The notes beneath the pieces were generated by a model. That model was given only the letters and a program-made list of their open reading frames with translations. It had not been told where the DNA came from and did no database searches. A program made the position numbers and the translations under genes. Positions 1,115 through 63,907 of a stretch of 64,000 nucleotides of DNA are shown piece after piece. This DNA is from Artemia franciscana (Eukaryota > Arthropoda > Branchiopoda > Anostraca > Artemiidae), in assembly GCF_032884065.1 (NCBI RefSeq), contig NC_088865.1, forward strand, positions 45,363,732 through 45,427,731. The letters run 5' to 3'. Each line of letters opens with the position of its first letter. Position 1 is the stretch's first letter.

Positions 1115-2834
1115 TTAAATAAAAAAAACGAGTTTTTTTAACTGAAAGTAAGGAGCGACATTAAAACTTAAAACGCACAGAAATTACTTCGTATATGAAA
1201 GAGGCTGCTTCCTCATCAACGCCCCGCTCTTTACGCTAAAGTTTTTTACTGTTTTAGAAAGAAGAATTGAGAGAAAGAGTCAAACTTTAGCGTAAAGAGC
1301 GGGGCGTTGATGAGGAAGCAGCCTCTTTCATATACGAAGTAATTTCTGTGGGTTTTAAGTTTTAATGTCGCTCCTTACTTTCAGTTAAAAAAACTCGTTT
1401 TTTTTATTTAATTTCTGAACGTTTTTGAATCAATGCATGTTTTGATTTTGGCTCTCCGCAGAGGAATAATCAAAACGAAATTTGTATATTTTTTGGGGGG
1501 GGGGGGCTAAATGGCTTTCTCATAATTTTGATCGAATGATTTTGAGAAAAAAAGAGGGGGGGGCGAAGCCTAGTTGCCCTCCGATTTTTTGGTTAATTAA
1601 AAAGGCAACTAGAACTTTTAATTTTTTACGAATCTTTTTATTGGTAAAAGATTTACGTAACTTATAAATTAGCTTACGTAAAGAACTTTTGTATTCTCAT
1701 GTTTTTATTACATATATGAGGGGATTCGCCCCATCGTCAGTACCTCGCTCTTTACACTAAAGCTTAAATTTTATCCCAATTCATTAAGAATGACCCCCTG
1801 AATCACAAAAGCCGTAGAATAAGTAGTTGAAATTACCGAAAATACTTTAGCGTAAAGAGCGAGGTATTAGAAGGAGGTGAGCCCCTCATATGGGTAATAA
1901 TTTCTGTTTGTTTTAAGTTTTATTGCTGTTCCTTACTTCCAGCTGAAAAAGCTTTTTCACTTTTATTTTTTAATTGTTTTTTTTAAATAATGCTAGTAAA
2001 TCCTGCTCTCCCTTCATGGAAATTTTCTTCTCCCATTACAAATTCTCGAAGGAAAGTTCCCCCAGCATATCCCCCTCTTCTCAACCCCTCCCCCAAACCA
2101 AAAAAATCCTCCTGAAAACGCCTGTATACTTCCCAATAACCATTACTATATGTAAGCACAGGTCAAAGTTTGTAACTTGTTGCCCCTCCCACGGGGACTG
2201 TGGGGGAGTAAGTCGTTCCCAAAGACATAGTTATAAGGTTTTTCGACTATGCTGAATAAAATGGCTATCTCAGAATTTTGATCCGTTGACTTTGGGAAAA
2301 TAATTAGCGTGGGAGGGGGCCTAGATGCCCTCCAATTTTTTTGGTCACTTAAAAAGGGCACTAGAACTTTTCATTTCCGTTAGAATGAGCCCTCTAGCAA
2401 CATTCTAGGACAACTGGGTCGATACGATCACCCCTGGGAAAAAAAAAACAAACAAAAAAACAAAAAAACAAATAAACACGCATCCGTGATCTGCCTTCTG
2501 GCAAAAAATGCAAAATTCCACATTTTTGTAGATAGGATCTCGAAACTTCTACAATAGGGTTCTCTGATACGCTGAATCTGATGGTGTGATTTTCGTTAAG
2601 ATTCTATGACTTTTAGGGGGCGTTTCCCCCTATTTTCTAAAATAACGCAAATTTTCTCAGGCTCGTAACTTTTGATGGGTAAGACTAAACTTGATGAAAC
2701 TTATATATTTAAAACCAGCATTGAAATGCGATTCCTTTGATATAGCTATTGGTATCAAAATTCCATTTTTTAGAGTTTTGGTTACTATTGAGCCGGGTCG
2801 CTCCTTACTACAGTTCGTTACCACGAACTGTTTG
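1115..2834 (-). repeat. 1.7-kb hairpin-ended repeat, copy A
   Basis: This is a full-length minus-strand copy (1,720 bp) of the dominant repeat of the window. On the minus strand it opens with CAAACAGTTCGTGGTAACGAACTG, a palindrome with 8-bp arms, and ends in TTATTTAA. The last 300 bp form a giant hairpin: left arm 1115-1244, loop 1245-1281, right arm 1282-1411, nearly perfect over 130 bp. A second inverted pair built on CTCTTTACRCTAAAG lies at about 1742-1867. Short open frames inside recur in every copy but match no transposase. It is inserted in a LINE frame, so its ends are well defined. Confidence 0.9.
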
Positions 2835-3570
2835 ATACTAACTAGGTAAGTGAAGCTGTCCACTTGATCAATCTTCTCGTTACCTAAAATTACCTCTTTA
2901 CTTTTACTTATTCCTAACCTTTGTGACTTGGTTGTCTTAACATCAATTTTCAAATTTATTCTCACCCCTAAACTCGCAAACCTCTGAAAATTCATTTATT
3001 TTGCCAACATCCTCATCTAGGATGCTCAAATCATCAGAAAAATCTAAGTCTAAGAGATTCCCCAGATATTCCTTGTTCTCAAATTGTCTTTGCTCTGCTC
3101 CTTAGGGCAAAGTTCATCAAAATGATCAATATAAACAGGGGTAGGGCGAAACCCTGTTTAATTCCTGATTTAATACAAAACCAGCTACTAACCTTATTTC
3201 CTTATTTAACCTAATTCTTTGCTTTAGTGACTTGGTGATCTTAACATCAATTTTCAAATTTATTCTCGCCCTTGAACTCAAAAAATCATTGAAAATTTAT
3301 TTATATTGCTAACAACTTCATCCAGGATCCTCAAATTATCGGAAAAATCTAAGTCTAAGAGATTCCCAAGATATTCCTTGTTCTCCATTTGTCTTTGCTC
3401 TGCTCCTTAGGGCAAAGTTCATCAAAATGATCAATATAAACAAGGGTAGGACAAAACCCTGTTTAATTCCTGATTTAATACAAAACCAGCTACTAACCTT
3501 ATTTCCTCTTTTAACCACCGCAATTTTATTCTCTTACATGGCACTTGTCACTCTAGTACATTCATTTTGA
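2835..3570 (-). mobile_element. LINE reverse transcriptase remnant (right part), with an internal 304-bp duplication
   Basis: This continues the LINE interrupted by copy A. On the minus strand it encodes VSSWFCIKSGIKQGF (the RT motif-B neighbourhood, GVKQG-like) and then NLKIDVKTTKSQRLGIS and EVILGNEKIDQVDSFTYL (thumb region). The block from about 2925 to 3207 recurs at 3229-3511 with an offset of 304 bp and visible divergence. The right-hand version resembles the LINE at 13.4 kb more closely than it resembles its neighbour, so this may be two related copies joined together and not a recent tandem duplication. Several stops and frame changes make it non-functional. Confidence 0.75.
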
Positions 3571-3639
3571 ATGTATTTTGTATAGAATTGACTATAGTAA
3601 AGGCCATAAGGTATCAGTGTTTTAATATTTTTATTATCA

Positions 3640-4330: not shown

Positions 4331-5482
4331 ATCTCAGCAAACAAGCTTACAACAGGTACTAATATAAATGAAAAAAAAATTAAAATAATTCTTAAAACGA
4401 GAAAACTTTAAGTCAAAAATGCATATTAAGCTTAAAACCAACAAAATCCTTACAAAAACGAGTTTGGTTGCTGCCCCCGTCTCTAACTTGAAAAGTCTAA
4501 GGCGTCCTACGTCATTAGCGCTTTGTGAAAACTAAATGTTTCTTGAACCTTCATGGGAAGAACTAGGAGAATTAATTTGAATATTTGATATACAATGACA
4601 TTAAATACAGAAATTTCAACAGTCCGAAATTGTTTTTCACCGTAATTTTAATTTTTATTTTCAATGTAATAGGTACACAAGAAAATATCTCCGTTTTCAT
4701 TAAAGTGACAATGACGTAGTAGAACTTGAAAAAAACAATGACGTTAAGCTCTATATTAGTATTTGCTGGTCGTTTTGAGTTTGAATTGTAATGGGAAATG
4801 ATTCCTGCTGGTCTTGAGTTCAACTTGGCTGTTTACTTTTCTTTGAAAAACTTATCTCAATGTACATTTTTCTAATTAACTTTGTTGGAATTTATTTCTT
4901 ATTGTTTTTTTTCTTATTTTTTTTTTCTTATTGATTTATAAAATGAATTTTTCTCCAGTTTTTCACGTCTTAATTTTAATATTTAACATAAATGATTATA
5001 GTTTATTAGTTACCTGTTGAAATGTTGATTTTTGTTTGTCATAGAACTTTTTTTCTGGTCATAATTTATTATTTATCTTTACTTTTCCTCGAATAACTTA
5101 TTCTTTGGATTTTTAAAAAAAAGTTAATTCCTGTCCATTTTGGATTGCCCTTGTTTTTTCTAATGGATAGTAAAATCAATATTTATCTAGTTTTTTATAT
5201 GTCTGGTATGTGATTTAAACCCTCTGAACATTTTTCAACAGTATTACCTCAATGCCCTTAGCATTTTCGAGACTCAGGATCAAACATGTAGACTTTTCTC
5301 AATAATCGACCTTGTATATAACAATTGGACAATTCACATAAGGTATAACAGTTAACCCTGGGGCTCTGGGGTTTTTGTCATATCAAGAGGATTAAATATT
5401 TGATTTTCTGACTATTTTTCTCAAGATGGATATTCCAAAATGTCGATAAACAAATAAATGGTTATCTTATAAACAAGGTTTT
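4331..5482. other. AT-rich stretch without recognised gene
   Basis: This is intergenic or intronic DNA with T-rich runs near 4900-4930. No exon, RNA gene or family repeat could be supported on either strand. Confidence 0.5.
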
Positions 5483-7197
5483 CAAACAGTTCGTGGTAAC
5501 GAACTGTAGTAAGGAGCGACCCGGCTCAATAGAAACCAAAACTCTAAAAAATGGAATTTTGATACCAATAGCTACATCAAAAGAATCGCATTTTAATGGT
5601 GATTTTAAATATATAAGTTTCATCAAGTTTAGTCTTACGCAACAAAAGTTACGAGCCTGAGAATATTTGTGTGATTTTAGAAAATAGGGGGAAACACCGC
5701 CTAAAAGTCATAGAATCTTAACGAAAATTACACCATCAGATTCAGCGTATCAGAGAACCCTACTGTAAAAGTTTCAAGCTCCTATCTACAAAAATGTGGA
5801 ATGTTGTATTTTTTGCTAGAAGGCAGATCACGGATGCGTGTTTATTTGTTTGTTTTTTTTTGTTTTTTTTCCCAGGGGTGATCGTATCGACCCATTTGTT
5901 CTAGAATGTTGCGAGAGGGCTCATTCTAACGGAAATGAAAAGTTCTGGTGCCCTTTTTAAGTGACCAAAAAAATTGGAGGGCACCTAGGCCCCCTCCCAC
6001 GCTAATTATTTTCCCAAAGTCAACGGATCAAAATTCTGAGATAGCCATTTTATTCAGCATAGTCGAAAACCTTATAACTATGTCCTTGGGGACGACTTAC
6101 TCCTCCACAGTCCCCGTGGGAGGGGCTACAAGTTACAAACTTTGACCAGTGCATACATATAGTAATGGTTATTGGGAAGTGTACAGGTGTTTTCAGGAGG
6201 ATTTTTTGGTTGGGGGGAGGGGTTGAAAAGAGGGGGATATACTGGGGAAACTTTCCATCGAGGAATTTGTCATGGGGGAAGAAAATTTCCATGAAGGGAG
6301 CGCAGGATTCACTAGCATTATTTTAAAAAAAAAACAATGAAAATATAAATATGAAAAAGGTTTTTTCAGCTGGAAGTAAGGAGCAGCATTAAAACTTAAA
6401 ACGAACGGAAATTATTACCCATATGAGGGGCTCACCTCCTCCTAATACCTCGCTCTTTACGCTAAAGTATTTTTAGTAATGTCAACTATTAATTCTACGG
6501 CTTTTGTGATTCAGGGGTCATTCTTAAGGAATTGGGCCAAAATTTAAGATTTAGTGTAAAGAGAGAGGTACTGACGAGGGGGCGAACCCTTTCATATGTG
6601 TAATAAAAACATGAGAATAAAAAATTCTTTACGTAAGCTAGTTTATAAGTTACGTATATCTTTTACTAATAAAAAGATTTGTAAAAAATTAAAAGTTCTA
6701 GTTGCCTTTTTTATTAACCAAAAAATTGGAGGGCAACTAGGCTTCCTTCCCTGCTCTTTTTTTCTCAAAATCATTCGATCAAAATTATGAGAAAGCCATT
6801 TAGCCCCCCTCCCCCCCAAAAAAATGCAAATTTCGTTATAATTATTTCTCTGCAGAGAGCCAAAATCAAAACATGCATTGATTCAAAAATGTTCAGAAAT
6901 TAAATAAAAAAAAAAAGTTTTTTTTAACTGAAAGTAAGGAGCGACATTAAAACTTAAAACGAACAGAAATTACTTCGTATATGAAAGGGGCTGCTTCCTC
7001 ATCAACGCCGCGCTCTTTACGCTAAAGTTTTTTACTGTTTTAAAAAGAAGAGTTGAGAGAAAGAGTCAAACTTTAGCGTAAAGAGCGGGGCGTTGATGAG
7101 GAAGCAGCCCCTTTCATATACGAAGTAATTTCTGTTCGTTTTAAGTTTTAATTTCGCTCCTTACTTTCAGTTGAAAAAACTTGTTTTTTTTATTTAA
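5483..7197 (+). repeat. 1.7-kb hairpin-ended repeat, copy B
   Basis: Full-length plus-strand copy (1,715 bp) running from CAAACAGTTCGTGG to TTATTTAA, flanked by T on both sides. The terminal hairpin is at about 6899-7198, with arms of the A/B/E/F sequence type (GGCTGCTTCCTCATCAACG). The internal inverted pair is near 6450-6570. Confidence 0.9.
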
Positions 7198-8524: not shown

Positions 8525-9832
8525 TTAGTCAAAAATTTCTTTAAGTATTTCTAGATAATTCTTTTGATATTTATTTAAAAGTTCGTTATAATGAAAACTA
8601 AATTTTTTAAATTGCCAAGTTAATTTATTTGCAGAAAAACCTCTTGATATCAATTTTTGGCTTAAGATTTTACATCTATTTTTAAAATCAATATAATTAC
8701 TACAAATCCTTGCATAACCAAGTAACTGTGAGAAAAACGCTGAATATGTGATATTTGAGTGTATATTACTTTCAGGGAATGGGAAACTAATCACTTCAAA
8801 ATCAAAATCATCCGTTTTATTATACATTTTAAAACTTAATTTATTATTATCACAAATATTAATATTTAAATCTAAGAAATGATCTTCATGACCAGCGCCA
8901 TGACTAGGCTCAAGAATAAGCTCTGATGGATATATATTTTTAGAAATATCAATGAAATCCTTACAATTTAAGACCAAAATATCATCTAAATATCTTTTAT
9001 TATTTGACAAAGCATGTTTTAAATTAATTGGATTATTCTTATCCATCATATATTTATATTCTAGTTGACTTAAAAACAAGTCAGCTATAAATGGGCTGGC
9101 ATTCCCCCCCATGGGAATTCCCATAATTTGCTTGTACAAATCACCCCCAAATCTTATATAAGTATTGTATAAAACAAATTCCAATAACTCAAAAATCATA
9201 TCCAAGCTGTAACATCTCAAGTTAACTGTAGTATTAAAGCAGTTTGTCCATATGGCTTTTTTATTATAACTGTCTATTTTTAAGAACCTTTTACTAGATA
9301 AGAGGAAAGATTTCTTTATAACAGTTTTTAAATTATCTAACACTAAATTGAGTGATAAATTAGTATACATTGTCGCAAAATCGAAAGACTCAATTCTTTT
9401 AGCTGAAACCATTGTTAAAGAATCTATCACCTGCAGTGAATTATTAACACTCCAATATGGATTAAAATTCGAAAAATTTTTAATACCAGAACAATAGGTT
9501 TTAAGTTTATTTACAATTTCCTTTAAAATTAAAGAGAGGTCAGTAGCAGCAATGCGGGTTGGACATTTAGCTGCTCCAGCAATAAACCGTGGTTTAGGGG
9601 GATTCTTATGAAATTTTACAGTCCAATATAGGAAAGGGAACTTTTTATCATTGTCATTTATTTTAATATTAAAATTTTTAAAAAGTATTTCTTCAGTCTT
9701 TTCAATTAAATTCTCATCCTCTATATTTACCTTTTCATAAACATTAGTTGTGCCTAACTCCCTTTTTAAGATATCACAATACAGCTTCTGACAAATTATG
9801 GCAAAATTATTATTAGCTTTATCCACTGGCAC
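8525..9832 (-). pseudogene. Penelope-like (Naiad-type) reverse transcriptase
   Basis: This is the C-terminal reverse transcriptase half of a Penelope-like retroelement, 435 codons long. Motifs in order: VDKANNNFAIICQKLY (residues 3-18, the DK-type N-terminal motif of this class), KFHKNPPKPRFIAG (73-86), motif A FDFATMYTNL with catalytic D151, motif B GIPMGGNASP (238-247), and motif C YLDDI with D283 and D284, followed by a GHEDHFLDLNI block (314-323). All catalytic aspartates are present. The methionine at 9832 is not the real start: coding sequence continues upstream in this frame and joins the endonuclease frame after a one-base slip near 9909-9913. Apart from that slip this half is open, so the copy looks fairly young. 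Confidence 0.9.
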
Positions 9833-9849
9833 AATTACAAATTCATTCT

Positions 9850-11160
9850 TTAGATTAGCAATTGCTTGTTTAATCTTCGCATTATAAAATAATGATTTAG
9901 TGTTACTATTTTTAAGTTAGAATATATTTTATTTCTTACTCTACTAATAATTAAATTCTTCCAACTTTGAAAACTCTCTTTATTTTTATTCTCTTTCTTA
10001 CACCACTTATCAATAAATAAATCAAAATCATTTTCCAAGCCATCAAGAACACTCGATGGTTTCAGATGATGAGAAAGACGGAAATTTGCCCCTTTATTCA
10101 TTATAATTTGAAGATCATCTTGCTTTATTATTGACAAGTCCCCTGTTATAACATGTTTGTAAGTAGGATTTACAAATGGGCCAAGTTGCTTACAATTACA
10201 AACCGGTTTCCAATTTATATCGCTATCTAGTTTTTTTAGTATTAAATTATAATTAAAAATAATTTGCCCAATAGTTTTTGAAAATTTATAAGTTAAAACT
10301 GGACTATCATTATAATTTAAATTACTAGGAAGGGCCTGTTTCACATGCCGCTGATTTAAAATTTCTGGTAAATTAATATCTTCAATCTGCTTACAAGTAA
10401 AATTAATAGGTAAATATAATCTGTTATCCTTATTACTAATCTTATCGAACTTTTTCTTTTTTGAAATAAATTTCGTTTTAGATAGAATGCAAATTGTATC
10501 ACATATTACTTTAAAATTATAATCAAGAGCTGTATTATTCTTCACAATCCAGAAAAGTTTGATTAAATTCCTCTTGGATAAATTATTTAGACACTTTATT
10601 ACAGAAATCATACCCCTAGATTCAAGTAGCTGGCATAGATCTATAGAAAGCATATGTACCTCTAATTCATTTTTTCTATTATTTTTCCTATGTCCTCTCG
10701 ATCGTTTTTTACGTTTGGTAGGACAAGTAAAAGAAGGATGGTCCATAAAACCATCAATACATTTAACAACAACATGAGACATGTCACCATATTTTGCTAC
10801 ACGATCATTTAACCCAAAAGGATAAGCTGTACCAAGAGTATGGATCCAGAAATCCTCCTGTTTACGTAGTCTATTATTCTTCTCTTCTTTATTTGAATTT
10901 TCTAATTCTAAATTTTCTAAAATTGTGACAGTTATATCTGATATGGAACATTTACCATTACTACAATGTTGAACTAGATAGTTATTAGTTTTTTCATTAT
11001 TAACTGTTGTCTTGTGTCCAGAAAATCTTTTATATATATTATTAGTTGTTTCCCCCACATATTGTAGGCAGCATTTATTACATTCTAATAGGTAAATTAC
11101 ATTGGTTGTTCTACAATTAACATTACCACGTAACTTGCATGCAAAATTTTTATTATACAA
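9850..11160 (-). pseudogene. Penelope-like (Naiad-type) N-terminal GIY-YIG endonuclease and CxC linker
   Basis: This frame lies 5' of the reverse transcriptase and carries a GIY-YIG endonuclease: VIYLLEC (residues 21-27), YVGET (34-38), R45 in YKRFSGH, and a late EDFWIHTLGT with the conserved glutamate near 102. C27, C30, H49 and H65 fit the CCHH motif of Penelope endonucleases. A basic stretch (149-163) could be a nuclear signal. CNC at 321-323 is the CxC linker that defines the permuted clade in which endonuclease precedes RT (Naiad/Chlamys); the CCHH motif favours Naiad. The frame opens with TTG after an in-frame TAA 18 bp upstream, with no ATG, so the 5' end is truncated. It ends prematurely because of a frameshift in an A-run (9909-9913); the RT follows in the next frame. 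Confidence 0.88.
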
Positions 11161-11179
11161 TGTACTTTTAACCCTTTAA

Positions 11180-11594: not shown

Positions 11595-11698
11595 ATATTG
11601 AAGCCTCATTTTCTTTAATAGAGTCAGCGTTATACAAAACCGTTTAAAGATGAATACATTAAAGTCATTCGTGCTATGTACAGGAACAAAATTACTAT
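11595..11698 (+). mobile_element. LINE reverse transcriptase remnant (5' part, split by copy D)
   Basis: A short plus-strand fragment reads EASFSLIES, which resembles an RT motif A of the EAAFDSVDR type with the aspartate lost, and then DEYIKVIRAMYRNKITI. The frame resumes as IKEGNEVSSWF directly after copy D, so both parts belong to one LINE copy interrupted by that repeat. Confidence 0.6.
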
Positions 11699-13439
11699 CA
11701 AACAGTTCGTAGTAACGAACTGTAGTAAGGAGCGATCCGGCTCAATAGTAACCAAAACTCTAAAAAATTAAATTTTGATATAAATAGCTACATCAAAAGA
11801 ATCGTATTTTGATGTTGATTTTAAATATATAAGTTTCATCAAGTTTAGTCTTAGCCATCAAAAGTTACGAGCCTGAGAAAATTTGCCTTATTTAGTAAAA
11901 TAGGGGAAACACCCCCTAAAAGTCGTAGGATCTTAACAAAAATGACACCATCAGATTCAGCGTATCAGAGAATCCTACTGTAGAAGTTTCAAGCTCCTAT
12001 CTACAAAAATGTGGAATTTTGCATTTTTTGCCAGAAGACAAATCACGGGAGCGTGTTTATTTTTTTTTTTTTTTTTTTGTTTTTTTTCCAGGGGTCATCG
12101 TATCGACCAAGTGGTCCTAGAATGTCGCAAGAGGGCTCATTCTAACGGAAATGAAAAGTTCTAGTGCCCTTTTTAAGTGACCAAAAAATTGGAGGGCATC
12201 TAGGCCCCCTCCCACGCTCATTTTTTCCCAAAGTCAACGGATCAAAATTTTGAGGTAGCCATTTTGTTGAGCATAGTCGAAAATCTTAATAACTATGTTT
12301 TTGGGGATGACTTACTCCCCCACAGTCCCTGGGAGAGGGTTTGAAAGTTACAAACTTCAACCAGTGTTTACATATAATAATGGTTATTGGGAAGTGTACA
12401 GACGTTTTCAGGGGGATTTTTTTGGTTTTGGGGGTAGGGTTGAGGGAGGGGGCTATGTGGGAGGATCTTTCCTTGGAGAAATATGCCATGGGGGAAAAAA
12501 TTCAATGAAAAGGGCGCAGGATTTTCTAGCTTTACTATAAAAAACAACAATGAAAAAATAAACATGAAAACGTTTTTTCAAATGAAAGTAAGGAATAGCA
12601 TTGAAATTTAAAACAAACAGAGATTATTACGCATATGAAGGGTTCTAAAAATACTTTAGCATAAAGAGCGAGGTATTTAGGAGGAGATAAATACATCGCT
12701 CTTTATGCTACAATATTTTTAGTGATTTCAACTATTTATTCTACGGCCTATTTGATTCAGGGGTCATTCTTAAAGAATTGGAACAAAACTTACGATTTAG
12801 TGTAAAGAGTGTGGTATTAACGAGGGTAAAAACCCCCTCGTACACATAGTAAAAATATAAGAATATAAAAGTTTGTTACGTAAGTTAATTCTTAAGTTAC
12901 GTATATTTTTTACTAATAAAAACATTTGTTGAATATTAAAAGTTCTAGTAGCCTTTTTAAGTAACCGAAAAGTTGGAGGGCAGCTAGGCCTCCTTCCCCG
13001 CCCCTTATTTCTCAAAATCGTCTGATCAAAACTAAGAGAAAGCCATTTAGCCAAAAAAAAAATTAATATACTAATTTCATTTCAATAATTTATGTGCGGA
13101 GAGCCAAAATCAAACATGCATTAATTCAAAAACGTTCAGAAATTAAATAAAAAAAACTAGTTTTTTTAACTGAAAGTAAGGAGCGACATTAAAACTTAAA
13201 ACGAACAGAAATTACTCCGTATATGAAATGGGTTGTCCCCTCCGCAGTCCCACGCTCTTTACGCTAAAGTTTTTAGTTGTTTTAAAAAGTAGACTTGTGG
13301 CAAAGAGTCAAACTTTAGCGTAAAGAGCGAGGGACTGCGGAGGGAACAACCCATTTCATATACGGAGTAATTTCTGTTCGTTTTAAGTTTTAATGCTGCT
13401 CCTTACTTTCAGTTAAAAAAACTAGTTTTTTTTATTTAA
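11699..13439 (+). repeat. 1.7-kb hairpin-ended repeat, copy D
   Basis: Full-length plus-strand copy (1,741 bp). The terminal hairpin has left arm 13142-13272, loop 13273-13309 and right arm 13310-13440. About 30 bp of each arm differ from copies A, B, E and F (GGGTTGTCCCCTCCGCAGTC), yet the arms still pair. An additional internal hairpin based on CTTTAGCATAAAGAGCGAGG is at about 12650-12730. It is inserted inside a LINE frame. Confidence 0.9.
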
Positions 13440-14392
13440 TAATTAAAGAAGGGAATGAGGTTAGTAGCTGGTTTTGTATTAAATCAGGAATTAAACAGGG
13501 TTTCGTCCTACCCCCATTTACATAGAACATTTTGATGGACTTCATCCTAAGGAACACAACAAAGACAAATGGAGAACAAGGAATATCTTGGGAATCTCTT
13601 AGACTTAGATTTTTCCGATAATTTGAGGATCCTGGATGAAGTTGTTAGCAATATAAATAAATGTTTAATGATTTTTTGAGTTCAAGGGCGAGAATAAATT
13701 TGAAAATTGATGTTAAGATCACCAAGTCACTAAAGCAAAGAATTAGTAAAAGTAAAGAAGTAATTTTAGGCAACGAAAAGATTGACCAAGTAGACAGCTT
13801 TGCTTACATAGTTAGTATTAATAGTAAAGACGGTGGGTGCAGTGAAGATAATAAAGATAGAATAGCCAAGGCCCAAAGTTGAAAAAGTTTGGAAGAATAG
13901 GAAGATAGTTCTGCACACCAAAATATGAAGTTATTGGAAGCTACACTGATGACCAGTGGGCAGGTATTGTTTTGAAGTGTGTGCGATCCAAAAAACGAAG
14001 GATGATATGCTAGATGTTTTCCAGAAAGATAACTTATGGGATGTTTTGGTTTCACGACTGACTGAAAGCATCTCAAACAAGAAAAATGCGGACCATTCCT
14101 TCTTTTTGAGGTTACAATGATAGAAAAATTGAGAAGACTAGGACAATTTCTTCGGATGAAGGATGATGGATTGCCCAAGATCGTTGTTGTCGGGCAACCA
14201 TCTAGAACTTAAAAGAAAAGCAAGATGTCCTCGAATAGAATTTGAGCAAGTCTTAAGAAAAGACTTAATGGTAATTAGAACCTTTTTTGAGGGTGTAAAG
14301 ATAGAGGCTCTGAATCGCATGGGGTGGAGGGTGACTGATTGTGGCTCTGTTGGCCTCATGTGCCATGGTGCTGCAGTGAGTTGTTAATTGTT
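13440..14392 (+). mobile_element. LINE reverse transcriptase remnant (3' part)
   Basis: Plus-strand blocks in order: IKEGNEVSSWFCIKSGIKQGF, ARINLKIDVKITKS, EVILGNEKIDQVDSFAY, NSKDGGCSEDNKDRIAKAQS, then IEKLRRLGQFLRMKDDGLPKIVVVGQPSR and EALNRMGWR. Several stops and frame changes break it. It is the best preserved copy of the LINE family also seen at 0.5-3.6 kb and 18.6 kb, and the stretch around 13815-13830 supplies the uninterrupted version of the site into which copy A inserted. Confidence 0.8.
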
Positions 14393-37053: not shown

Positions 37054-37077
37054 AGGAATATAAATGACGACCGGGAC

Positions 37078-38779: not shown

Positions 38780-38799
38780 AGTTATCATATATAATCATA

Positions 38800-40841: not shown

Positions 40842-41038
<197 letters not shown>

Positions 41039-45100: not shown

Positions 45101-45322
45101 TACGACTTCGACCCAAATGCCCATGGCTGGTCTCGCCCGAGGGGCAGACCTCGGACAAGGTGGAAAGACAGCCTCGACAAATTCTTGGCGATGGCCAACA
45201 TTGCTGTCGACGAGGCGCCTCATTTAGCAGCAGACCGGTCCGCCTGGAGAAGTCAAGTTGCGAAGCTCTCTACGCCGCACCCCATGCGGCAGGAGCCTTA
45301 AGTCAGTCAAGTAAGTCAAAAT
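42170..45322 (+). mobile_element. Full-length APE-type LINE in intron 1
   Basis: A single-ORF non-LTR retrotransposon. It ends shortly after its stop in AAGTCAGTCAAGTAAGTCAA, a short tandem tail without poly(A), which together with the single endonuclease-RT frame favours an RTE-like clade. The 5' boundary is not exact, and no target duplication was identified. Confidence 0.7.
42179..45301 (+). CDS. LINE endonuclease-reverse transcriptase, 1,040 residues, intact
   Basis: An uninterrupted frame. An apurinic-type endonuclease spans about residues 68-315: ATWNVLTL (N75), ITETHL (E104), VCYAPT, LLGDMNA (D210, N212), IDYIIV and NTDHR (D306, H307). The reverse transcriptase covers about 530-860: SNYRGITLL, QAGFMPGRST, motif A FVDFKAAFDS (D673), motif B GVRQGCAAAPELF, motif C FADD (D774, D775) and YLGSVLSNDG. 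The tail carries WFGHLLRM (958-965) and GRPRTRWKD (989-997), usual in RTE-like and related LINEs. Every catalytic residue is present. GC content is visibly higher than the surroundings, consistent with recent arrival and preserved codons. The ATG at 42179 is the first after an in-frame TAA at 42167. It would copy its own RNA at nicked target DNA. Confidence 0.92.
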   Translation: MFKFCPCPGSNQNPGLGSVGPATLHLKSIAMNSLATASDDRSSFIPSRPLLAPGLRSDQRLNLLDHGGLRIATWNVLTLNFPGAKTLLAMELKRFRISIAGITETHLVGNGTDPIGEGYHLLWSGQTTTRRNGVGLVLDNKSIKCLLSFTPVSDRIANARLSHKQGKMTVLVCYAPTNEADDEAKETFYSALANELSKISPHDIVILLGDMNATVSDNHDLWRQVIGPVIPDPLNDNGLRLLQLCSMHNLVITNTLFARKDIHKYTWYSNDGRTKKMIDYIIVSQRWRSSISNCRTYRSAEIGNTDHRLVVANMRLRLQAQRSQPRPTKIDVSRPSDQEIRSKYAIDVSNRFDALLPFESSEDAWISFKKNVLESATANIGRAKRAKKAWVQFDTLDVIEQRRKARLLGDMPTYRCLNGVRNKLIQRDKKLFVERKANELEGAAMKGDVGSLYKHLRDLTSDKAPSVASVVSAVGQPLSDEAAQVSRWKDHFSSLLNADAVAQTDQELARLAASTQEVPSNETETSFTTAEIHSALKRLKNNKAAGVCGVSAELLKYAGPAMLLWLQMLFSVVWRTEWVPKDWRLGIILPLWKRKGSKSICSNYRGITLLSVPGKLFAMTLLDRCTSILRRKRRVQQAGFMPGRSTVEQIFTMRQLIEKTREFRRNAYVAFVDFKAAFDSVDRNSVWLILRSTGLPDKYCKLFEKLYEETESCVQVNGKRSTTFNIKTGVRQGCAAAPELFNSVIDYVMTRTTNRLPFGLQFADRILTDADFADDLALVADSIDQLTDALEVLKEEAAKVGLKINWLKTKIMAIEPPGPVSHPDTITVCGTLVEVVKNFTYLGSVLSNDGSLDEEVCSRISKASSIVGRLNSLWRMPHISRRTKMRIYNASVSSVLLYAAETWPLKSTILKMIDVCQTKQLRRIEGFRWDDFVSNARLLTLTSQVPFSVQIAQRSLRWFGHLLRMPTSTPARIVYDFDPNAHGWSRPRGRPRTRWKDSLDKFLAMANIAVDEAPHLAADRSAWRSQVAKLSTPHPMRQEP

Positions 45323-45734: not shown

Positions 45735-47676
45735 CAAACAGTTCGTGGTTACCACAGCTTAGATATATAGTAGAGTTATAAAACTCGATTTATTTTTGGG
45801 ACACAGCGCCCGGTAGTGATTCTAGCGGCTGGAGACTGAAAACTGGCAGTCTGAATCAAAAGATCAGAGATTGGACAAACAAACAAAATTGCATTCCCGT
45901 ATATGAAGTTGTTGCACGATCTAGGAGGCACCAGGTTCAGAGCCCTGTACCAAAAGCTTCTCATTGGCAAGATAGCAGTTTTCATAACTGTGTTGTATAT
46001 CTTAGCTGTGGTGGTAACGAACTGTAGTAAGGAGCGAACCTGCTCAATAGTAACCAAATTCTAAAAAACTGAATTTTGATACCAATAGTGACATCAAAAT
46101 TTCAATATACAAGTTTCGTCAAGTTTAGTCATACCCATCAAAAGTTAGGAGCCTGGGAAAATTTGCCTTATTTTCGAAAATAGGGGGAAACATCCCATAA
46201 AATTAATTGAACCTTAATGAAACTCACATCATCAGATTCAGCCTATCAGAGAACCCTAATGCAGAGGTTTGAAGCTCCTAACGACAGAAATGTGGAAGTT
46301 TTGATTTTTTGCCAGAAGATAGATCTATTTGTTTAGATAGTTTATTTGTTTTTTGTGTTTTTTTTTCAGTCAGGGTGATTGTATTGACCCGGTGGCCCTA
46401 GAATGTTACGAGAGGGATCATTCTAGATAAAATCAATAGTTCTAGTGCTCTTTTTAAGTGACCACGAAAATTTAAGGGTACCTAGGCCCCCTCCCACGCT
46501 CAGTTTTTTCCTAAAGTCACCGGATCAAAATTTTGAGATAGCTATTTTATCCAAAATAGTCGAAAAACCTTATACTTAAGTCTTTAGGGACGGCTTACTC
46601 CCCCACAGTCCCTATGGGAGTGGCTGCAAGTTACAAACTTTGACTAGTGTTTACATATAGTAATGGCTATTGGGAAGTATCCAGATGTTTTCAGAGGATT
46701 TTTTGGTTGGGTGGGAGGGGTTGAGGAGAGTGGGCTACTTGGGAGGGGGGTCTTTTCATGGAAGAATTTATTGTAGTGGAAGAAAATTTCCCTGAAGGGG
46801 GTGTGGCCCCAGATTTTCTAGTATTATTTAAAAAAAACAATGAAAAAATAAATATGAAAAAGTTTTTACAACTGAAAGTAAAGATCAGCATTAAAACGTA
46901 AAACGAACAGAAATTATTACGCATATGAGGGGTGCAACTTCTCCTAATACCCCGCTCTTTATGCTAAAATATTTTAGGTAATTTCAACTATCTATTCTAC
47001 GGCCTTTGTGATTCAGGGGTCATTCTTAAGGAACTGGGACAAAATTTAAGCTTTAGTGTACAGAATGAGGTATTGACGAGGGGGCGTAAAATCATACGAA
47101 TATTGAAGTTCGCTACGTCAGTTAATTCGTAAGTTATATACATTTTTTACTAATAGAAACGTTCGTAAGAAATTAAAAGTTCTAGTTGCCTTGTTAAGTA
47201 ACCGAAAAATTAGAGGGCAACTAGGCCTCCTCCCCCGCTCTTTTTTCTCAAAATTGACCAATCAAAACTATGAGAAAACCATTTAGCCTAAAACAAAAAT
47301 TAATATGCAAATTTCTTTTTAATTATTCATGTGCGGAGAGCCAAAATCAAAAGATTATTAATTCAGAAACTTTCAGAAACTGAATAAAAAAACAAATTTT
47401 TTTAAAATAAAAGTAAGGAGCGACATTAAACCTTAAAACGAACAGAAATTACCCCTTTTATGAAAGGGGTTGTTCCCTCCTCAACACCCTGCTTTTTACG
47501 TAGAACTTTTTTTACTGCTTTTCAAAGTAGAGTTGAGAGAAAGAGTCAAACTTTAGCGTAAAAATCCAGGCGTTGAGCAGGGAACTGTCTCTTTCATATG
47601 CGGAGTAATTTCTTCGAATATAAGTTTGAATGCTGCTCCTTACTTTCAGTTAAAAAAAACTTTTTTTTTTATCTAA
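45735..47676 (+). repeat. 1.7-kb hairpin-ended repeat, copy G, with nested insertion
   Basis: A plus-strand copy from CAAACAGTTCGTGG to TTATCTAA, T on both flanks. It is 1,942 bp because a 262-bp element (45751-46012) sits in the middle of the 5' palindrome. Terminal hairpin about 47381-47677, more diverged than in the other copies. Confidence 0.85.
45751..46012. mobile_element. 262-bp MITE-like element nested in copy G
   Basis: Inverted ends ACCACAGCTTAGATATATA and TATATCTTAGCTGTGGT. It interrupts the palindrome GTTCGTGGTAACGAACTG: GTTCGTGGT lies to the left and GGTAACGAACTG to the right, implying a 3-bp GGT duplication (plus one extra T). The body has no coding capacity. A 3-bp duplication would fit a PIF/Harbinger-type element, which is an inference. 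Confidence 0.65.
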
Positions 47677-47749
47677 TCCAAGATAAAGGTTGTGAAATTT
47701 CCGTGTAGATATATAGAGTACATATTTATAATTTTGTTAGTACATATTA

Positions 47750-49035
47750 TGTTTTTTTTTTGTTTTTTTTCCCAGGGGACATCGTATCGACCAAATGGTC
47801 TTAGAATGTCACAAGAGGGCTCATTCTAACGGAAATGAAAAGTTCTAGTGCCCTTTTTAAGTGACAAAAAAATTGGAGGGCATCTAGGCCCCCTCCCACG
47901 CTCATTTTTTCCCAAAGTCAACGGATCAAAATTTTGAGATAGCCATTTTATTCAACATAGTCGAAAACCATAATAACTAAGTCTTTGGGGATGACTTACT
48001 CCCCCACAATCCCTGGGGGAGGGGCTGCAAGTTACAAACTTTGACCAGTGTTTACATATAGTAATGGTTATTGGGAAGTGTACAGACGTTTTCATGGGGA
48101 TTTTATTTTTTTGGGGGGTGGGGCTGTGGAGAGGGGGCTGTGTTGGAGGATCTTTCCTTGGAGGAATCTGTCATGGGGAAGAAAAATTCAATGAAAAAGG
48201 CGCAGGATTTTCTAGCATTACTATAAGAAAACAATGAAAAATAAACATGAAAACGTTTTATCAAATGAAAGGAAGGAGTAGCATTGAAACTTAAAACGAG
48301 CAGAGATTATTACGCATATGAGGGGTTCTAATAATACTTTAGCATAAAGAGTGAGGTATTTAGGAGGAGATAAATACCTCGCTCTTTATGCTAAAGTATT
48401 TTTAGTAATTTCAACTATTTATTCTATGGCCTTTCTTATTCAGGGGTCATTCTTAAAGAATTGGGACAAAACTTACGATTTTGTGTAAAGAGCGAGGTAT
48501 TACCGAGGGTACAAACCCCCTCGTATACATAATAAAAATATAAGGTTATGAAAGTTTGTTACGTAAGTTAATTCTTGAGTTACGTATATTTTTTACTAAT
48601 AAAAACGTTCGTTAAAAATTAAAAGTTCTAGTTGCCTTTTTAAGTAGCCAAAAAATTGGAGGGCAACTAGGCCTCCTTCTCCCCCCCTTTATTTCTCAAA
48701 ATCGTCTGATCAAAACTAAGAGAAAGCCATTTAGCCAAAAAAGAATTAATATACAAATTTCATTTTAATAATTTATCTGCGGAGAGCCAAAACCTAACAT
48801 GCATTAATTCAAAAACGTTCAGAAATTAAATAAAAAAAAACTAATTTTTTTAGCTGAAAGTAAGGAGCGACATTAAAACTTAAAACGAACAGAAATTACT
48901 CGGTATATGAAATGGGTTTTCCCCACCGCAATCCCTCGCTCTTTACGCTAAAGTTTGACTCTTTGCCACAATTCTACTTTTTAAAACAATTGAAAGCTTT
49001 AGCGTAAAGAGCGAGTGATTGCGGAGGGGAAAATT
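47750..49035 (+). repeat. 1.7-kb repeat, copy H (truncated at both ends)
   Basis: Begins at the internal T-run before CCCAGGGGACATCGTATCG and runs into the terminal hairpin. The hairpin left arm starts about 48825, and the right arm breaks off near 49035 after GATTGCGGAGGGGAAAA. The loop (48966-49006) is inverted relative to copies A to G. Confidence 0.8.
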
Positions 49036-56329: not shown

Positions 56330-57797
56330 CTAAAAATAATGACCATTTTAGATTTGAAATCAGAAGTATATGTCATTTGATTAATTTCTATCAATATACT
56401 CCACAAGCAGCGTGGCTCTTTTGAACTATTTTATGAACCTGTAATAACAAACAAATCTGTTTAATTTTCTTATAATTTCTGTCAATTATAGTATGATTGT
56501 ACTTAATTGATTATCAAGTAATTAAGATCATTCCAAGAAGCAGTGGATACAAATATGGAAAAACATATCTTTTCCTTAAATTCAATGCAAGTTTCTTAGA
56601 AACCATTTTGCCAATAATGACCTATAAACCATATAATGACCATTTTAGATTTGAAATCAGAAGTATATGTCATTTGATTAATTTCTATCAATATACTCTA
56701 CAAACAGCATTGCTCTTTTGAACTATTTTATGAACCTCTAATAACAAACTAACATGTTTAATTTTCTTATAATTTCTGTAAATTATAGTATGATTGTACT
56801 TAATTGATTATCAAATAATTAAGATCATTCAAAGAAGCAGTGGATAAAAATATGGAAAAACATATCTTTTCCTTAAATTCAATGCAAGTTTCTTAGAAAC
56901 CATTTTGCCAATAATGACCAATAAACCAAATAATGACCATTTTAGATTTGAAATCAGAAGTATATGTCATTTGATTAATTTCTGTCAATATACTCTACAA
57001 GCAGCGTGGCTCTTTTGAACTATTTTATAAACCTGTAATGACAAACTAATCTGTTTAATTTTCTTATAATTTCTGTAAATTATAGTATGATTGTACTTAA
57101 TTGATTATCAAATAATTAAGATCATTCAAAGAAGCAGTGGATAAAAATATGGAAAAACATATCTTTTCCTTAAATTCAATGCGAGTTTCTTAGAAACCAT
57201 TTTGCCAATAATGACCAATAAACCAAATAATGACCATTTTAGATTTGAAATCAGAAGTATATGTCATTTGATTAATTTCTATCAATATACTCTACAAGCA
57301 GCGTGGCTCTTTTGAACTATTTTATGAACCTGTAATAACAAACTAATCTGTTTAATTTTCTTATAATTTCTGTCAATTATAGTATGATTGTACTTAATTG
57401 ATTATCAAATAATTAAGATCATTCAAAGAAGCAGTGGATAAAAATATGGAAAAACATATCTTTTCCTTAAATTCAATGCAAGTTTCTTAGAAACCATTTT
57501 GCCAATAATGACCTATAAACCAAATAATGACCATTTTAGATTTGAAATCAGAAGTATATGTCATTTGATTAATTTCTATCAATATACTCTACAAGCAGCG
57601 TGGCTCTTTTGAACTATTTTATGAACCTCTAATAACAAACTAATATGTTTAATTTTCTTATAATTTCTGTAAATTATAGTATGATTGTACTTAATTGATT
57701 ATCAAATAATTAAGATCATTCAAAGAAGCAGTTGATAAAAATATGGAAAAACATATTTTTTCTTTAAATTCAATGCAAGTTTCTTAGAAACCATTTT
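56330..57797. repeat. 297-bp tandem repeat, about 4.9 units
   Basis: GACCATTTTAGATTTGAAAT recurs at 56341, 56638, 56935, 57232 and 57529, a constant period of 297 bp. Units differ by only a few substitutions and contain CAAGCAGCGTGGCTCTTTTG as the only GC-richer stretch. No coding capacity. Confidence 0.95.
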
Positions 57798-58395
57798 GCT
57801 GCAGTGTAAAAATTACTCATTCTGCAAGGGAAACTCATTTGACTTAATATACCAAAGCTAAATGCTCGAGACCACTGATAAAAGGTATATAGTACGAATA
57901 TCCAACGGACATATCTTGAAACTTTTTAGAATCTGTAAGTATTTTGCGTTACTTAAAGCAATTCGTGATAATAATAATGTAATATTTGAAGAAAGTAGCT
58001 TGTATGCTTATTAAACGATACTAACTAAAGGATCATAGGAGTTCCACTAATTATTTTTAATTTTCTCTGATGATTTACCAAAACAAAATGCTCTGTAGTT
58101 CAACAGTAGCACATTATTGTCTGTGCTTGAAACTAAACACAAACCTCTAAGTACAAAGAACAACAAAAAGTCACAAAGATTGCTCTAAATGAGCAGAAAA
58201 ATGCATCAATACTGAAGAGATTCAAAATATTCAAATAGGCACAGAAAAACTCGACACAATAGCTCCAGCCTCACAAAATTGATTTAATTAATTTCTGTTC
58301 AGATAGTTAAAGAGCAACGTAAAACATCACAAATCTGCCAAAAGTAGTAACACAGAACATATCGATCATCTGAAAGACAGCAAAGAGTATTTGCT
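57798..58395. other. Stretch without recognised gene
   Basis: AT-rich sequence between the tandem repeat and the LINE remnant. Confidence 0.45.
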
Positions 58396-59420: not shown

Positions 59421-60334
59421 TAAACTGAAAGAATCTGACTCGGGTGCTAATCTTTAAGCTTTACATGTGTTACAGTGCTACCAATTCTCCATAATATAGG
59501 AGGATAATGGCATGTTTCTTCTTCCTAGAACATAAAAGGGGAAGATATTTTTGAAACTCTAGGGGTCCCCCCTCTCTCCCTTGTCGGTATCTCTGGCAAG
59601 TGTTAAGGGTACAGTATTTTATTATAGTTCTGGCTGCCTTAAAGAAACATCGTGGGATCTTATAAACGAAAAAAATAGAACCAGTAGAAGAATGTCTATC
59701 ACTAGTTAAGAGTGAACCACAATCTCACAGTAACCAAAAAGTGAAAAATGCACTTTAAAAAAACTGGCAACTATTCAGGAATGGTAGCTATTATTTTGAT
59801 TAATCTTAAAAATAAAAGTTCATTACGAGAAAAATTTATATTGATTTCAAAACAGAGCCCAAATCCCTCAAAATGTCGACAGATCAAAATAAAAATTGGT
59901 ATATTGGAATCGGCATTGTCAAAAAATCTTTTTTAGGGGTTATTTTAGGGTTTTACTAAAAGCGCCTAGTTTTGCCACGTTTTACCCGTGCATTTTCGCA
60001 ATGTCATGGTTCTAGAAAATGTACAAAATGCCCCAAATTTAAACCAATGGTTCCAATTAATTCGGATTTGTTTGTAAATACACATGCTTTTCCTTGTTTT
60101 CTTCTCAATTTCTTTGTAGTTTTCAAATGGGGTATCAGGTTTCTGGTAGAAAGAAAAAAAAGCATTAAAGCTTTAGACGAAGAGGAATTATCACGTATAT
60201 GACGTGAATTGCACCCTTTTTATTATCGTAATCTTCGAGATAAAGTTTTTCCGTTGTTTAGAAAAAATTCTCAATGTTCTAATTCAATTACTATTGGTTT
60301 TCATAAGTCGCCCGTAAAGAATTGGAAAAAAAAT
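59421..60334. other. Stretch without recognised gene
   Basis: Includes two short plus-strand frames (59972-60202 with CHGSRKCTKCPKF; 60209-60397) that match nothing known to me and may be scraps of an unidentified element. Confidence 0.35.
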
Positions 60335-61195
60335 TCAAACTTTAGCGTAAAGCGCAACGTATTAATCAGGAGGCAAACCCCTTCACATACATATTAATGT
60401 TTTATTGGTTTCAAGTTTTATTGTTGCTCCTTACTTTCAGTTGAAAAGACGTGTTTTGTTTTTATTCAATGTCTGATTATCTTTTAAATAATGCCAGGAA
60501 ATCTGCCACCTAACCCCTGGGTACTTCCTCCCCATGAAGATTCCTTTCCCTAGAAAATATAGCGAGAGAAAAATCCCCCACTTTAAAAAAGTATGCTTAC
60601 TTGCTAATAAGAAAAACTATACGAAAATGATGTGCAAATTTTTTAAATTTAAGACCTCCCCTTTAGGGTTTGTGGGTGATTATATTCTCTCCAAAGGCAT
60701 AGTTTTTGGGCATTTTAACTAAGCTGAACAAAGTAACCGTCTCAAAATTTGTATTGGGCAGTTTTAGAAAAAAAGGGCTTTTGAGGGAGTTTCGATCTTT
60801 TAGGTCTCTTAAAAAAGACTCTTAAATTTTTATACAATCACCCCTTGGGGGCAAAAACGCTACAAACAAACAAACACGCATCCATAATATTTCTTCTGGC
60901 AAGAGATACAAATATCCACATTTTTAATATAGGTGCCTATATAATAGAGTTCTCTCATATGCTGAATCTGATAGAGTGAATTTCATTGAGGTTTTTTTAC
61001 TTCTAGTTGGGTTTTTTCTCCTTTTTCAAAAATTGGACAAAGTTTTTCAGGGTCGTAGCTCCTATGGGTAGCATTAAACTCAACGTATTTTATCGTTATC
61101 AATATCACCATTCTATTTTCTTGGAGTTTTGCTTACTGTTGAGCCGTACTGCTCCTTACATACAGTTTGTTACCAAAAACTGCTTGACAATTGTT
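60335..61195 (-). repeat. Degenerate copy of the 1.7-kb repeat (copy I)
   Basis: Minus-orientation landmarks in the family order: AAACTTTAGCGTAAAGCGC, TTGCTCCTTACTTTCAGTTG, CATCCATAATATTTCTTCTGG, GAGTTCTCTCATATGCTGAATC, and near the end ACTGCTCCTTACATACAGTT and TGTTACCAAAAACTGCTTGA. Shortened and strongly diverged. Confidence 0.7.
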
Positions 61196-62167
61196 TTGCC
61201 TTTAAGTTCAACCTTTTCTACGTTTTTAATTAAACAAAGGCTTTACAAAAAAGTAATTTATCAGGGAAAAGTTAATGCCCTTATTAACTTAAGACTTGGA
61301 CTTAACTTAAGATTGGGGAGTAATAGAAACCTATAAAATTCTAATCTTAAGCGAAACGAATTGACTATTAAAGAATAAATACAGCCCTATTTATGCAATG
61401 TTATAAAAACAAAGTAAATTTTAATATATTTAGTTTTCAGTATGGTCCAAAATTAGACCTCAGAAGATTAGGGTTTGGAGGGAGGAGGATACTATTACCA
61501 AAATTATGTTTGTAGAAATATTTGTTTGTTTTAAGTTCAATTAAATTTTTACTCAATTTGGTATTTATTTATTTATCCGTGAGGTTGTAATATTTATGCT
61601 CGTAACATTATTTATTTTAATTTCTGGTTGTTTCAAGTCTGAGTCATTATGGGCCTTTATTTGTCCTCATCTTAAATCTAATATGGCTCTTTTTCAATTT
61701 TTGCTCGTTGTTTGTTGTAAAAGCCTTATTATTGGCTACTATGATGAATGTTTCAAGCTCTTCAGTTTTTTGGCTTTATATATAAAATATCCAAGTTCAG
61801 CAGGGTTGTATACTTACAAATACAAGGCTAATGCCTTAATAATTACCACACTCACTTTTTTCATCAGTCTTATAGAGGGGTTTAATTAGAGATTTCCCAA
61901 TTTTCCTAAGTTCTTCTTCTTTAATAAAAATAATACTTCTACCGTCACATAACCATCACTTGGAAACTCATTCATCACACTATCAGCACCTGGGGCCTAA
62001 TTATTTCTGAATCCTCCCAGTATTGTCAAAAAATTCTTCCTCGAAAATAAATCTTCCTGCACATCCGATGTGTCAAAAACTTTTTCGTTCCTCTGTATAT
62101 ATTCTTCCGTAACTCTCTCGCACATTCTCAAAATATTCTGTCCATTTCTTTTCAACTGTTTTCTTAT
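61196..62167. other. Stretch without recognised gene
   Basis: Contains TTTAATTTCTGGTTGTTTCAAG near 61617, also found near 41414 with one change, so part of it is probably another dispersed repeat. No gene seen. Confidence 0.4.
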
Positions 62168-63907
62168 CAAACAGTTCGTGATAAGAAACTGTAGTAAGGA
62201 GCGACCCAGCTCAATAGTAAACGAAACTCTAAAAAACGGAATTTTGATAATAAAAGATACATCAAAAGAATCAAATTATCGTGCTGATTTTAAATATATA
62301 AGTTTCACCAAATTTAGTCTTTGTCATCAAAAGTTACAAGCCTGAGAAAATTTGCCTTATTTTGGAAAATAGGAGGATACACCCCCTAAAAGTAATAGAA
62401 TCTTAACGAAAATCACACCATCGCATTTAGTATAACAGAGAACCTTATAGAAAAAATTTCAAGCTCCTATCTAAAAAAATGTGGAATTTCATATAATTTG
62501 CCAAAAGACAGATCACTGGTGCGTGTTTATTTGTTTTTTTGTTTTTTTTCCTAGGGGTCATCGTATAGACCAAGTGGTCCTAGAATGTTGCAAGAGGGCT
62601 AATTCTAACGGAAATGAAAAGTTCTAGTGCCCTTTTTAACTGACTAAAAAAATTGGAGGGCACCTAGGCCCCCTCCCATGCTCATTTTTTCCCAAAGTCA
62701 ACTGATAAAAATTTTGAGATTGCCATTTTGTTCCACATAGTCGAAAACCATATTAACTATGTCTTTGGGGATGACTTACTCCCCCAAAGTTCCTGGGGAA
62801 GGGGCTGCAAGTTACGAACTTTGACAAGTGTTTACATACAGTAATGGTTATTGGGAAGTGTAAAGACGTTTTCAGGGGGATTTTTTTGGTTTGGGGGTGG
62901 GGTTGAGGGTAGGGGGCTGTGTGGAAGGATCTTTCCTTGGAGGAATATGTCATGGGGGAAGATAAATTCAATGAAAAGGCCGCGGGATTTTCTAGCATTA
63001 CTATAAAAAAACAATGAAAAAATAAACATGAAAAAGTTTTTTCAGTTGAAAGTGAGGAGTAGCATTAAAACTTAAGACGAACAGAGATTTTTACGCATAT
63101 GAGGGGTTCTAAAAATACTTTAGCATAAAGAGCGAGGTATTTAGGACGAGATAAATACCTCGCTCTTTATGCTAAAGTATTTTTAGTAATTTCAACTATT
63201 TATTCTACGGCCTTTCTGATTCAGGGGTCATTCTTAAAGAATTGGGACAAAATTTAAGATTTAGTGTGAAGAGCGAGGTAATAACGAGGGGACAAACCCC
63301 CTCATATACATAATAAAGTTATAAGAATATAAAAGTTTGTTACGTAAGTTACGTCTTAAGTTACGTATATTTTTTACTAATAAAAAAATTCGTTAAAAAT
63401 TAAAAGTTCTAGTTGCCTTGTTAAGTAACCGAAAAATTGGAGGGCAACTAGGCCTCCTTCTCCGCCCCTTATTTCTGAAAATCGTCTCATCAAAACTAAG
63501 AGAAAGCCATTTAGCCAAAAAAAAAAAAACAATATACAAAGTTCATTTCAATAATTTATTTGCGGAGAGCCAAAATCAAATATGCATGAATTCAAAAACG
63601 TTCAGAAATTAAATTTAAAAAAAAATAGTTTTTTTAACTGAAAGTAAGGAGCGACATTAAAACTTAAAACGAACAGATATTACTCCATACGAAATGGGTT
63701 GTCCCCTCCACAATCCCTCGCTCTTTACGCTAAAGTTTGACTCTTTGCCACAGTTCTACTTTTAAAAACAATTAAAAACTTTAGTGTAAAGAGCGAGGCG
63801 TTGTAGAGGTGACAACCCATTTCATATACGGAGTAATTTCTGTTCGTTTTAAGTTTTAATGTCGCTCCTTACTTTCAGCTAAAAAAACTAGTTTTTTTTT
63901 TATTTAA
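62168..63907 (+). repeat. 1.7-kb hairpin-ended repeat, copy J
   Basis: Full-length plus-strand copy (1,740 bp), T on both flanks, D-type arms. Terminal hairpin about 63608-63908; the loop (63737-63778) is inverted relative to copies A to G. The internal CTTTAGCATAAAGAGCGAGG hairpin is at about 63117-63180. Confidence 0.9.

Follow-up and report, generated by a model that had tools for sequence, protein, structure and literature searches.

A non-coding repeat family of Artemia franciscana with a terminal palindrome of about 300 bp whose two arms change in concert

The stretch of Artemia franciscana DNA analysed here, 64 kb of contig NC_088865.1 (the window), contains a family of non-coding elements that end in a giant hairpin. 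The family was mapped with BLAST and exact ends were set by flank analysis, giving eight sizeable copies plus remnants. Six of the copies (A, B, D, E, F and J) are full, with lengths of 1,699-1,742 bp, and these intact six start with TCAAACAG and end with TTTTTATTTAA. The outermost ends, those of A (1115) and J (63907), are the outer coordinates of the initial annotation, and the repeat family with a giant terminal hairpin described there was confirmed by inverted-repeat search, BLAST and flank analysis. Its description as non-coding also stands, as none of the 10 stop-to-stop open reading frames (ORFs) of at least 150 aa listed for the window lies inside a full copy. Body divergence is 5.4-7.8% among A, B, E and F and 9.1-11.6% among D, H and J, with 15-17% between these two groups. 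The copies and the parts of copy B referred to below are the following, with flip and flop denoting the two orientations of the hairpin loop.

1115-2835, minus strand: copy A, full, 1721 bp; flip loop; 3' hairpin at 1113-1413; paralogous empty site at 13678-13971
5482-7197, plus strand: copy B, full, 1716 bp; flop loop; hairpin arms at 6907-7030 and 7068-7191
5482-5520, plus strand: 5' terminus of copy B; TC start; 9-bp hairpin ACAGTTCGT-GGTA-ACGAACTGT at nt 5-26; subterminal repeat AACTGTAGTAAGGAGCGAC from nt 21
6338-6620, plus strand: copy B, older hairpin within the element, part of the duplicated module; its inner arms agree at 80.7% over 57 nt
11698-13439, plus strand: copy D, full, 1742 bp; flop loop; arms at 13142-13272 and 13310-13440; paralogous empty site at 3655-3368 (minus strand)
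23377-25089, plus strand: copy E, full, 1713 bp; flop loop; arms at 24799-24923 and 24959-25083
27490-29188, plus strand: copy F, full, 1699 bp; flop loop; arms at 28893-29022 and 29060-29189; paralogous empty site at 39373-39633
46011-47677, plus strand: copy G, old; 5' terminus decayed
47753-49033, plus strand: copy H, truncated at both ends; right arm cut; flip loop
49136-49473, minus strand: remnant of the family, found by BLAST
60317-61060, minus strand: remnant or remnants of an older, truncated relative, found by BLAST (matches 60317-60494 and 60832-61060)
62167-63907, plus strand: copy J, full, 1741 bp; flip loop; hairpin at 63608-63908

Each full copy terminates in a hairpin of about 300 bp that reaches the last base. 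The inverted-repeat search returned arms of 124-132 bp with 95-99% complementarity for A, B, D, E and F, and for J a hairpin with 82-bp arms (93%) and a 137-nt gap. Within the element, a 118-bp block at 453-570 recurs at 1206-1321, and upstream there is an older hairpin (about 850-1100), which gives the 3' half the appearance of a duplicated module. In A, B, E and F this older hairpin has inner arms that agree at 74-81% over 57-58 nt; in D and H only 23-25 nt can still be aligned, and in G and J arm likeness is 57-62%. In the parts of the Helraiser study consulted (PMC4778049; other papers are likewise cited here from parts of their text), read-through is reported to make new 3' ends, and such read-through would be a possible source of the module duplication.

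For three of the six intact copies (A, D and F), joining the flanks yields a sequence that has an uninterrupted paralogue elsewhere in the window; for B, E and J no empty site was found within it. No base is duplicated at the junctions of the three empty sites, that is, a target-site duplication is absent. The junctions of A and F are exact, the empty relative of F having 11 extra bases from 6 nt rightward, and the empty relative of D carries substitutions at the junction; a second empty-site candidate for F was ambiguous. Copy D sits in sequence that by eye resembles a long interspersed nuclear element (LINE), and the flanks of F are a repeat that elsewhere has a tRNA-like match (39534-39614), the sole Rfam match in the whole window. 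In all six intact copies the left flank is A or T and the right flank T ([A/T]^T), and the element itself starts with TC and ends with TTTAA. The 5' hairpin, folded as DNA in copy B only, gave a z of -5.1, with 0 of 200 shuffles as good. A subterminal inverted repeat of 19-20 nt, AACTG(T/AA)AGTAAGGAGCGAC, begins at nt 21 of the element and recurs in inverted orientation some 25 nt before the 3' end; its 13-mer AGTAAGGAGCGAC has 21 matches in the window at no more than one mismatch, against 0.02 expected. The long palindrome is found at one end only, leaving the element without the terminal inverted repeats of cut-and-paste transposons. Together with the missing target-site duplication, these last two features were grounds for rejecting a foldback element or a cut-and-paste miniature inverted-repeat transposable element (MITE), and the same absences combined with the TC start point to rolling-circle insertion.

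The family is abundant. In the 1.27-Gb genome a 21-base motif from the 5' end (AACTGTAGTAAGGAGCGACCC) is matched exactly at 25,016 places and a 19-mer from one arm type is found at 13,876, with no occurrence of the control for the former or of the reversed control for the latter. Exact scans with the 5' motif gave no match in viral contigs or in the contigs of other genomes, a search in which records of the own genome were possibly excluded. For a published female A. franciscana assembly, a Helitron content of 8.81% is reported (PMC11492255), and the present family has likely been counted already among the annotated Artemia Helitrons or other repeats. A short-form element at C1:1175847-1176674 was considered and rejected, as it is a 5' part without the subsequent inverted repeat.

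The initial annotation had also claimed that both arms change together between subfamilies, and this proved real. Paired subfamily differences include GGCTGCTTCCTCATCAACG versus GGGTTGTCCCCTCCGCAGTC, ACGAGT versus ACTAGT and TTCGTATATGA versus TCCGTATATGA. Across the six intact copies of the window, 8 of 101 arm columns co-vary identically; the permuted mean was 0.24, and none of 20,000 permutations reached the observed value. For a larger set, 50 element ends (34 + 16) were examined and 10 (7 + 3) that were truncated, chimeric or had an odd loop were dropped, leaving 40 complete hairpins, to which all arm counts below refer unless stated otherwise. The region C1:1100001-1300000 was picked for its density in the 19-mer listing. 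Six of the loci L001-L008 (all but L002 and L008, the partner arms of L001 and L007), together with L031-L046, were chosen since one arm has the exact 19-mer; this biases the set to one subfamily and, at those loci, the 19-mer columns to that subfamily's state.

In this set the same non-majority state was present in both arms in 125 alignment cells. Shuffling of partners gave a mean of 26.0 and a maximum of 60 (0 of 5,000 shuffles as high), and sliding the arms by 1-3 columns reduced the shared cells to 4-7. Rare changes, those seen in at most one other copy, were paired in 18 cases against 0.68 expected, and one-armed in 127. States restricted to a single copy occupied both arms in 9 cells and one arm in 82 (9 and 74 without CpG columns), and two-copy states 9 and 45 cells, respectively (9 and 37 without CpG). 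For states in 3-5 copies the corresponding values were 35 and 41 (31 and 26), and for states in more than five copies 72 and 33 (64 and 13). CpG sites weigh in these counts, with 12 of the 101 columns holding 51 of the 196 arm differences. The independent arm divergence that the initial annotation had named as refuting its reading is thus not seen for many-copy states, and it does hold for the majority of states confined to one or two copies, which is what decay of the arms after insertion would produce.

Loop orientation varies as well. The 45-nt loop of A differs from that of B by 2 edits when inverted and by 22 when read directly, and the loops of H and J are inverted relative to that of D (4 edits versus 21). 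With H added to the set for this count, 5 of the 41 copies show the flip orientation, and at least three changes are required by tree branches with good support; as the arms are palindromic, inversion of the loop and inversion of the whole hairpin are indistinguishable. Both the flips and the private paired changes occur in copies with differing bodies and flanks, which bears on the question of an assembly artefact. Flips are rarer than homogenisation.

Several rearrangements involve the hairpin. At L006 (1-3019) two elements of different subfamilies are joined tail-to-tail at the hairpin loop, each without its outer arm, an arrangement which suggests that ends broken at the palindrome tip were then joined. 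An inverted partial duplicate of one element lies at C1:1157696-1160113 (L014-L015), its halves being 94.6% alike over 760 bp and having identical rare paired arm changes. Copy R_95427 (L018, C1 near 1195427) has a 70-nt hairpin loop in which direct and inverted duplication of loop sequence can be made out by eye, resembling a template switch. A third hairpin type was found in four copies, two on bodies of one main clade, one on a body of the other and one undecided; hairpins may, on this modest basis, be exchanged as units (cassettes) between subfamily bodies.

The terminal branch of the body, calculated over the last 420 bp adjoining the hairpin in 27 copies, was used as a proxy for copy age. 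Arm mismatch correlated with it (Spearman 0.63, p 0.0005), and the nine copies with the shortest branches (twice the branch below 4%) had 0-3 mismatches per 100-101 sites. Five of the 40 copies had no arm mismatch at all. On average the arms of one copy differ by 3.7%, and those of different copies by 9.4% (left) and 8.8% (right), with 12.6% for the body. In copy G, 27 of 100 core arm sites are mismatched, close to twice its terminal branch of 0.13, so that fixed copies appear to decay, to an extent that fits full decay since birth. The arms thus seem to be matched at birth and to decay afterwards, in the manner of a long terminal repeat (LTR) clock.

As judged from their sequence, the body and ends resemble non-autonomous rolling-circle elements of the Helitron2/HINE type. 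Our preferred reading, which we regard as probable, is that the family is a non-autonomous DNA transposon moved in trans by a rolling-circle (Helitron-type) Rep/helicase and that its arms are matched during transposition. In transit the element would exist as a single strand, with its 3' end folded back into a stem of about 130 bp; hairpin heteroduplex repair, or synthesis of one arm anew on the template of the other, would remove the mismatches in this stem and thereby give each daughter copy matched arms from the start. The loop would be inverted now and then by strand exchange or hairpin transfer, and after insertion the arms would be expected to mutate independently. The hairpin itself is probably the 3' terminator, as in Helraiser. 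Correction or copying of the arms in the single-stranded state would best explain arms that are alike when young and decay later, and widespread changes of any chemical type that are present in both arms.

Matched arms could also arise through ordinary gene conversion of the palindrome in the chromosome, by cruciform formation or break repair and without any dependence on transposition. Conversion between inverted-repeat arms has been proposed for Caenorhabditis and the human Y (PMC1803023), recombination between arms yields both concerted arms and loop inversions, and the arm mismatches fall below the number predicted from branch lengths (100 versus 218). We nevertheless hold this explanation to be rather unlikely, given that mismatch grows with copy age, that the old copy G has decayed nearly as far as its branch allows, and that single-copy states are unpaired in 82 of 91 cells. 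The initial annotation had itself offered two explanations, arm-templated copying or selection on pairing, and it is the former that gains support. Under selection, compensating mutations would accumulate because the hairpin is needed as a terminator; the hairpin is indeed retained in every subfamily seen, the outer arm motifs are conserved, and compensatory changes have been reported at Helitron2 ends (PMC3627910). However, the changes paired at least once comprise 15 transversions and 2 indels besides 23 transitions, single copies can hold several rare paired changes (three in R_2970, which has one arm mismatch), and loop inversions are left unexplained. Paired transversions and indels, inverted loops and mismatch that tracks age thus favour arm-templated copying over selection on pairing alone, to which we assign a very low probability.

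Rolling-hairpin replication as in parvoviruses, in which a 3' hairpin self-primes the second strand, a nick resolves the product and the palindrome is inverted in each round, would suit a palindrome that extends to the last base, the loop inversions, and the tail-to-tail joint of two elements through one hairpin at L006. The flip orientation is rare (5 of 41) and not near half, however, and hairpin transfer by itself would swap the arms without removing their mismatches, so that repair or resynthesis would be needed in any case; such replication in its pure form seems highly improbable. Replication through a hairpin-ended linear intermediate driven by a Helitron-type HUH nuclease, in which second-strand synthesis starts from the palindrome and nicking then resolves it, leaving behind arms that match and now and then a flip, is also improbable, if somewhat less so. 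Should it be true, this would be a route undescribed, to our knowledge, for eukaryotic rolling-circle elements.

A number of observations weigh against the proposal of a rolling-circle element with arms matched during transposition. Two-copy states are mostly unpaired, and 21 of 27 join copies with unlike bodies, which makes recurrent mutation likely; of the six two-copy states found in close pairs, two are paired in both copies and four unpaired in both. States present in at least three copies are never paired at columns 14, 18, 20, 58, 86, 87 and 96, of which 18, 86, 87 and 96 are CpG and 14, 20 and 58 are not. The sequence GGAGCAGC occurs in the right arm only in D and G and in the left arm only in R_103850, and among the 19-mer matches listed (100 places, reduced to 67 sites) the exact 19-mer is in both arms at 33 and in one at 34. 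The total of 100 arm mismatches compares with 218 predicted if all terminal-branch change postdates insertion, so that either the terminal branch overstates insertion age through unsampled source lineages, or arm constraint or continuing conversion has to be invoked. The older internal hairpin speaks for the proposal, being decayed and having its loop inverted in none of 37 readable copies (of 42, G and H being added for this count), but it is shorter and its arms less alike, which makes it an imperfect control. As to the ends, Helitron2/HINE elements have the 5' subterminal repeat 0-4 nt and the 3' one 20-60 nt from the terminus; here the 3' copy lies about 25 nt in, but the 5' copy begins only at nt 21. 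The short 3' hairpin, a AAAAAAACTAGTTTTTTT-like palindrome by eye, gave a non-significant fold in copy B (z -0.7), and with these two features membership of Helitron2/HINE is tentative. Finally, an autonomous partner of this type would share the ends and encode RepHel, with an endonuclease in addition in Helentrons. None was found at the two Helitron loci inspected (L029 and L030), rarer types not having been reached, and neither locus holds any of four end motifs of the family, for which reason both were rejected as partners. L029 has an intact 1,654-aa Helitron frame and, by eye, TC and CTAG ends in (TA)n; over 5.4 kb L030 shares 99.3% identity with this locus. In the underlying profile search with PF14214, 150 of 7,436 candidates were scored, nearly all within a few bits of each other.

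If arms are matched during rolling-circle transposition, the terminal stems of this family, with its tens of thousands of copies, would preserve one record per copy of a stage that is otherwise difficult to observe, in which the element is a single strand able to fold. Each insertion could moreover be dated from its arms, as with LTRs, which is normally impossible for rolling-circle elements, and loop flips would mark strand exchange at the terminus.

The remainder of the window contains other repeats. At 8525-11175 (minus strand) lies what we take to be possibly a Penelope-like element with an N-terminal GIY-YIG domain: one ORF has such a domain near its start (Pfam PF01541, residues 26-101), and the next is reverse-transcriptase-like by eye, Pfam naming nothing in it. 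Several degenerate pieces in 31000-41100 resemble the abundant Helitron of this genome, whose intact frame is that of L029. A stop-free LINE-type frame of 1,043 aa with endonuclease and reverse transcriptase domains occupies 42170-45301 (plus strand), where G+C is higher (46-49%), and a 297-bp unit is repeated in five tandem copies at 56334-57821, 91-98% alike to the reference copy.

Parvovirus inverted terminal repeats are terminal palindromes that exist in flip and flop; in contrast to them, the present palindrome is at one end only, the element has no genes and the flip is rare. Foldback elements carry long inverted repeats, and LTRs are terminal repeats that match at birth and decay with age; the Artemia element differs from both in having no target-site duplication, both arms at one end and no retrotransposon genes. 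Canonical Helitron1 elements, as described for Helraiser (PMC4778049), share with it the TC start, the missing target-site duplication, a 3' hairpin as the probable terminator and possibly new 3' ends made by read-through, but they end in CTRR with a palindrome of 16-20 nt about 11 nt from the end; this assignment was rejected, as all six intact copies end in TTTAA.

The defining marks of Helitron2 are hairpins at the 5' and the 3' end together with inverted repeats placed asymmetrically (Bao and Jurka 2013, PMC3627910). The same paper, in the parts consulted, describes a 5' T(C) start, a subterminal inverted repeat whose 3' copy is about 25 nt from the end, and insertion by T, mostly without target-site duplication, all of which recall the present element. 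The Artemia element differs in that its own 5' repeat starts at nt 21 and overlaps the 3' side of the 5' hairpin, that its 3' end is a palindrome of about 300 bp, and that no partner protein was found for it. HINEs, defined by subterminal repeats and a 3' palindrome (PMC4067079), are with DINE-1 non-autonomous Helentrons; they are likewise non-coding and of high copy number, with subterminal inverted repeats, a 5' inverted repeat, a 3' palindrome, a T-rich target and no target-site duplication (Thomas et al. 2014, PMC4067079; oyster Cg_HINE, PMC7492417). Where HINEs often have a tandem array, the present element carries the duplicated module. The 3' palindromes of mite HINEs measure 5-10 bp (PMC4067079), compared with arms of about 130 bp here, and the consulted parts of PMC4067079 and PMC7492417 describe neither arms of this length nor concerted arms or loop inversion. 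The initial annotation knew of no described family with this architecture. That view needs qualification for the ends and the mode of insertion, which resemble those of Helitron2/HINE, and it agrees with a non-exhaustive literature sample on Helitron ends, palindromes, hairpins, foldback elements and Artemia (Repbase and Dfam being outside the comparison), in which we met no description of a terminal palindrome of about 300 bp with an inverting loop. The loop inversion, the insertion without target-site duplication, the 5' hairpin, the subterminal repeats and the duplicated module with its older, decayed hairpin go beyond that annotation. What is new is the giant terminal palindrome, with its concerted arms and its flips, on a body that has known parallels in Helitron2/HINE.

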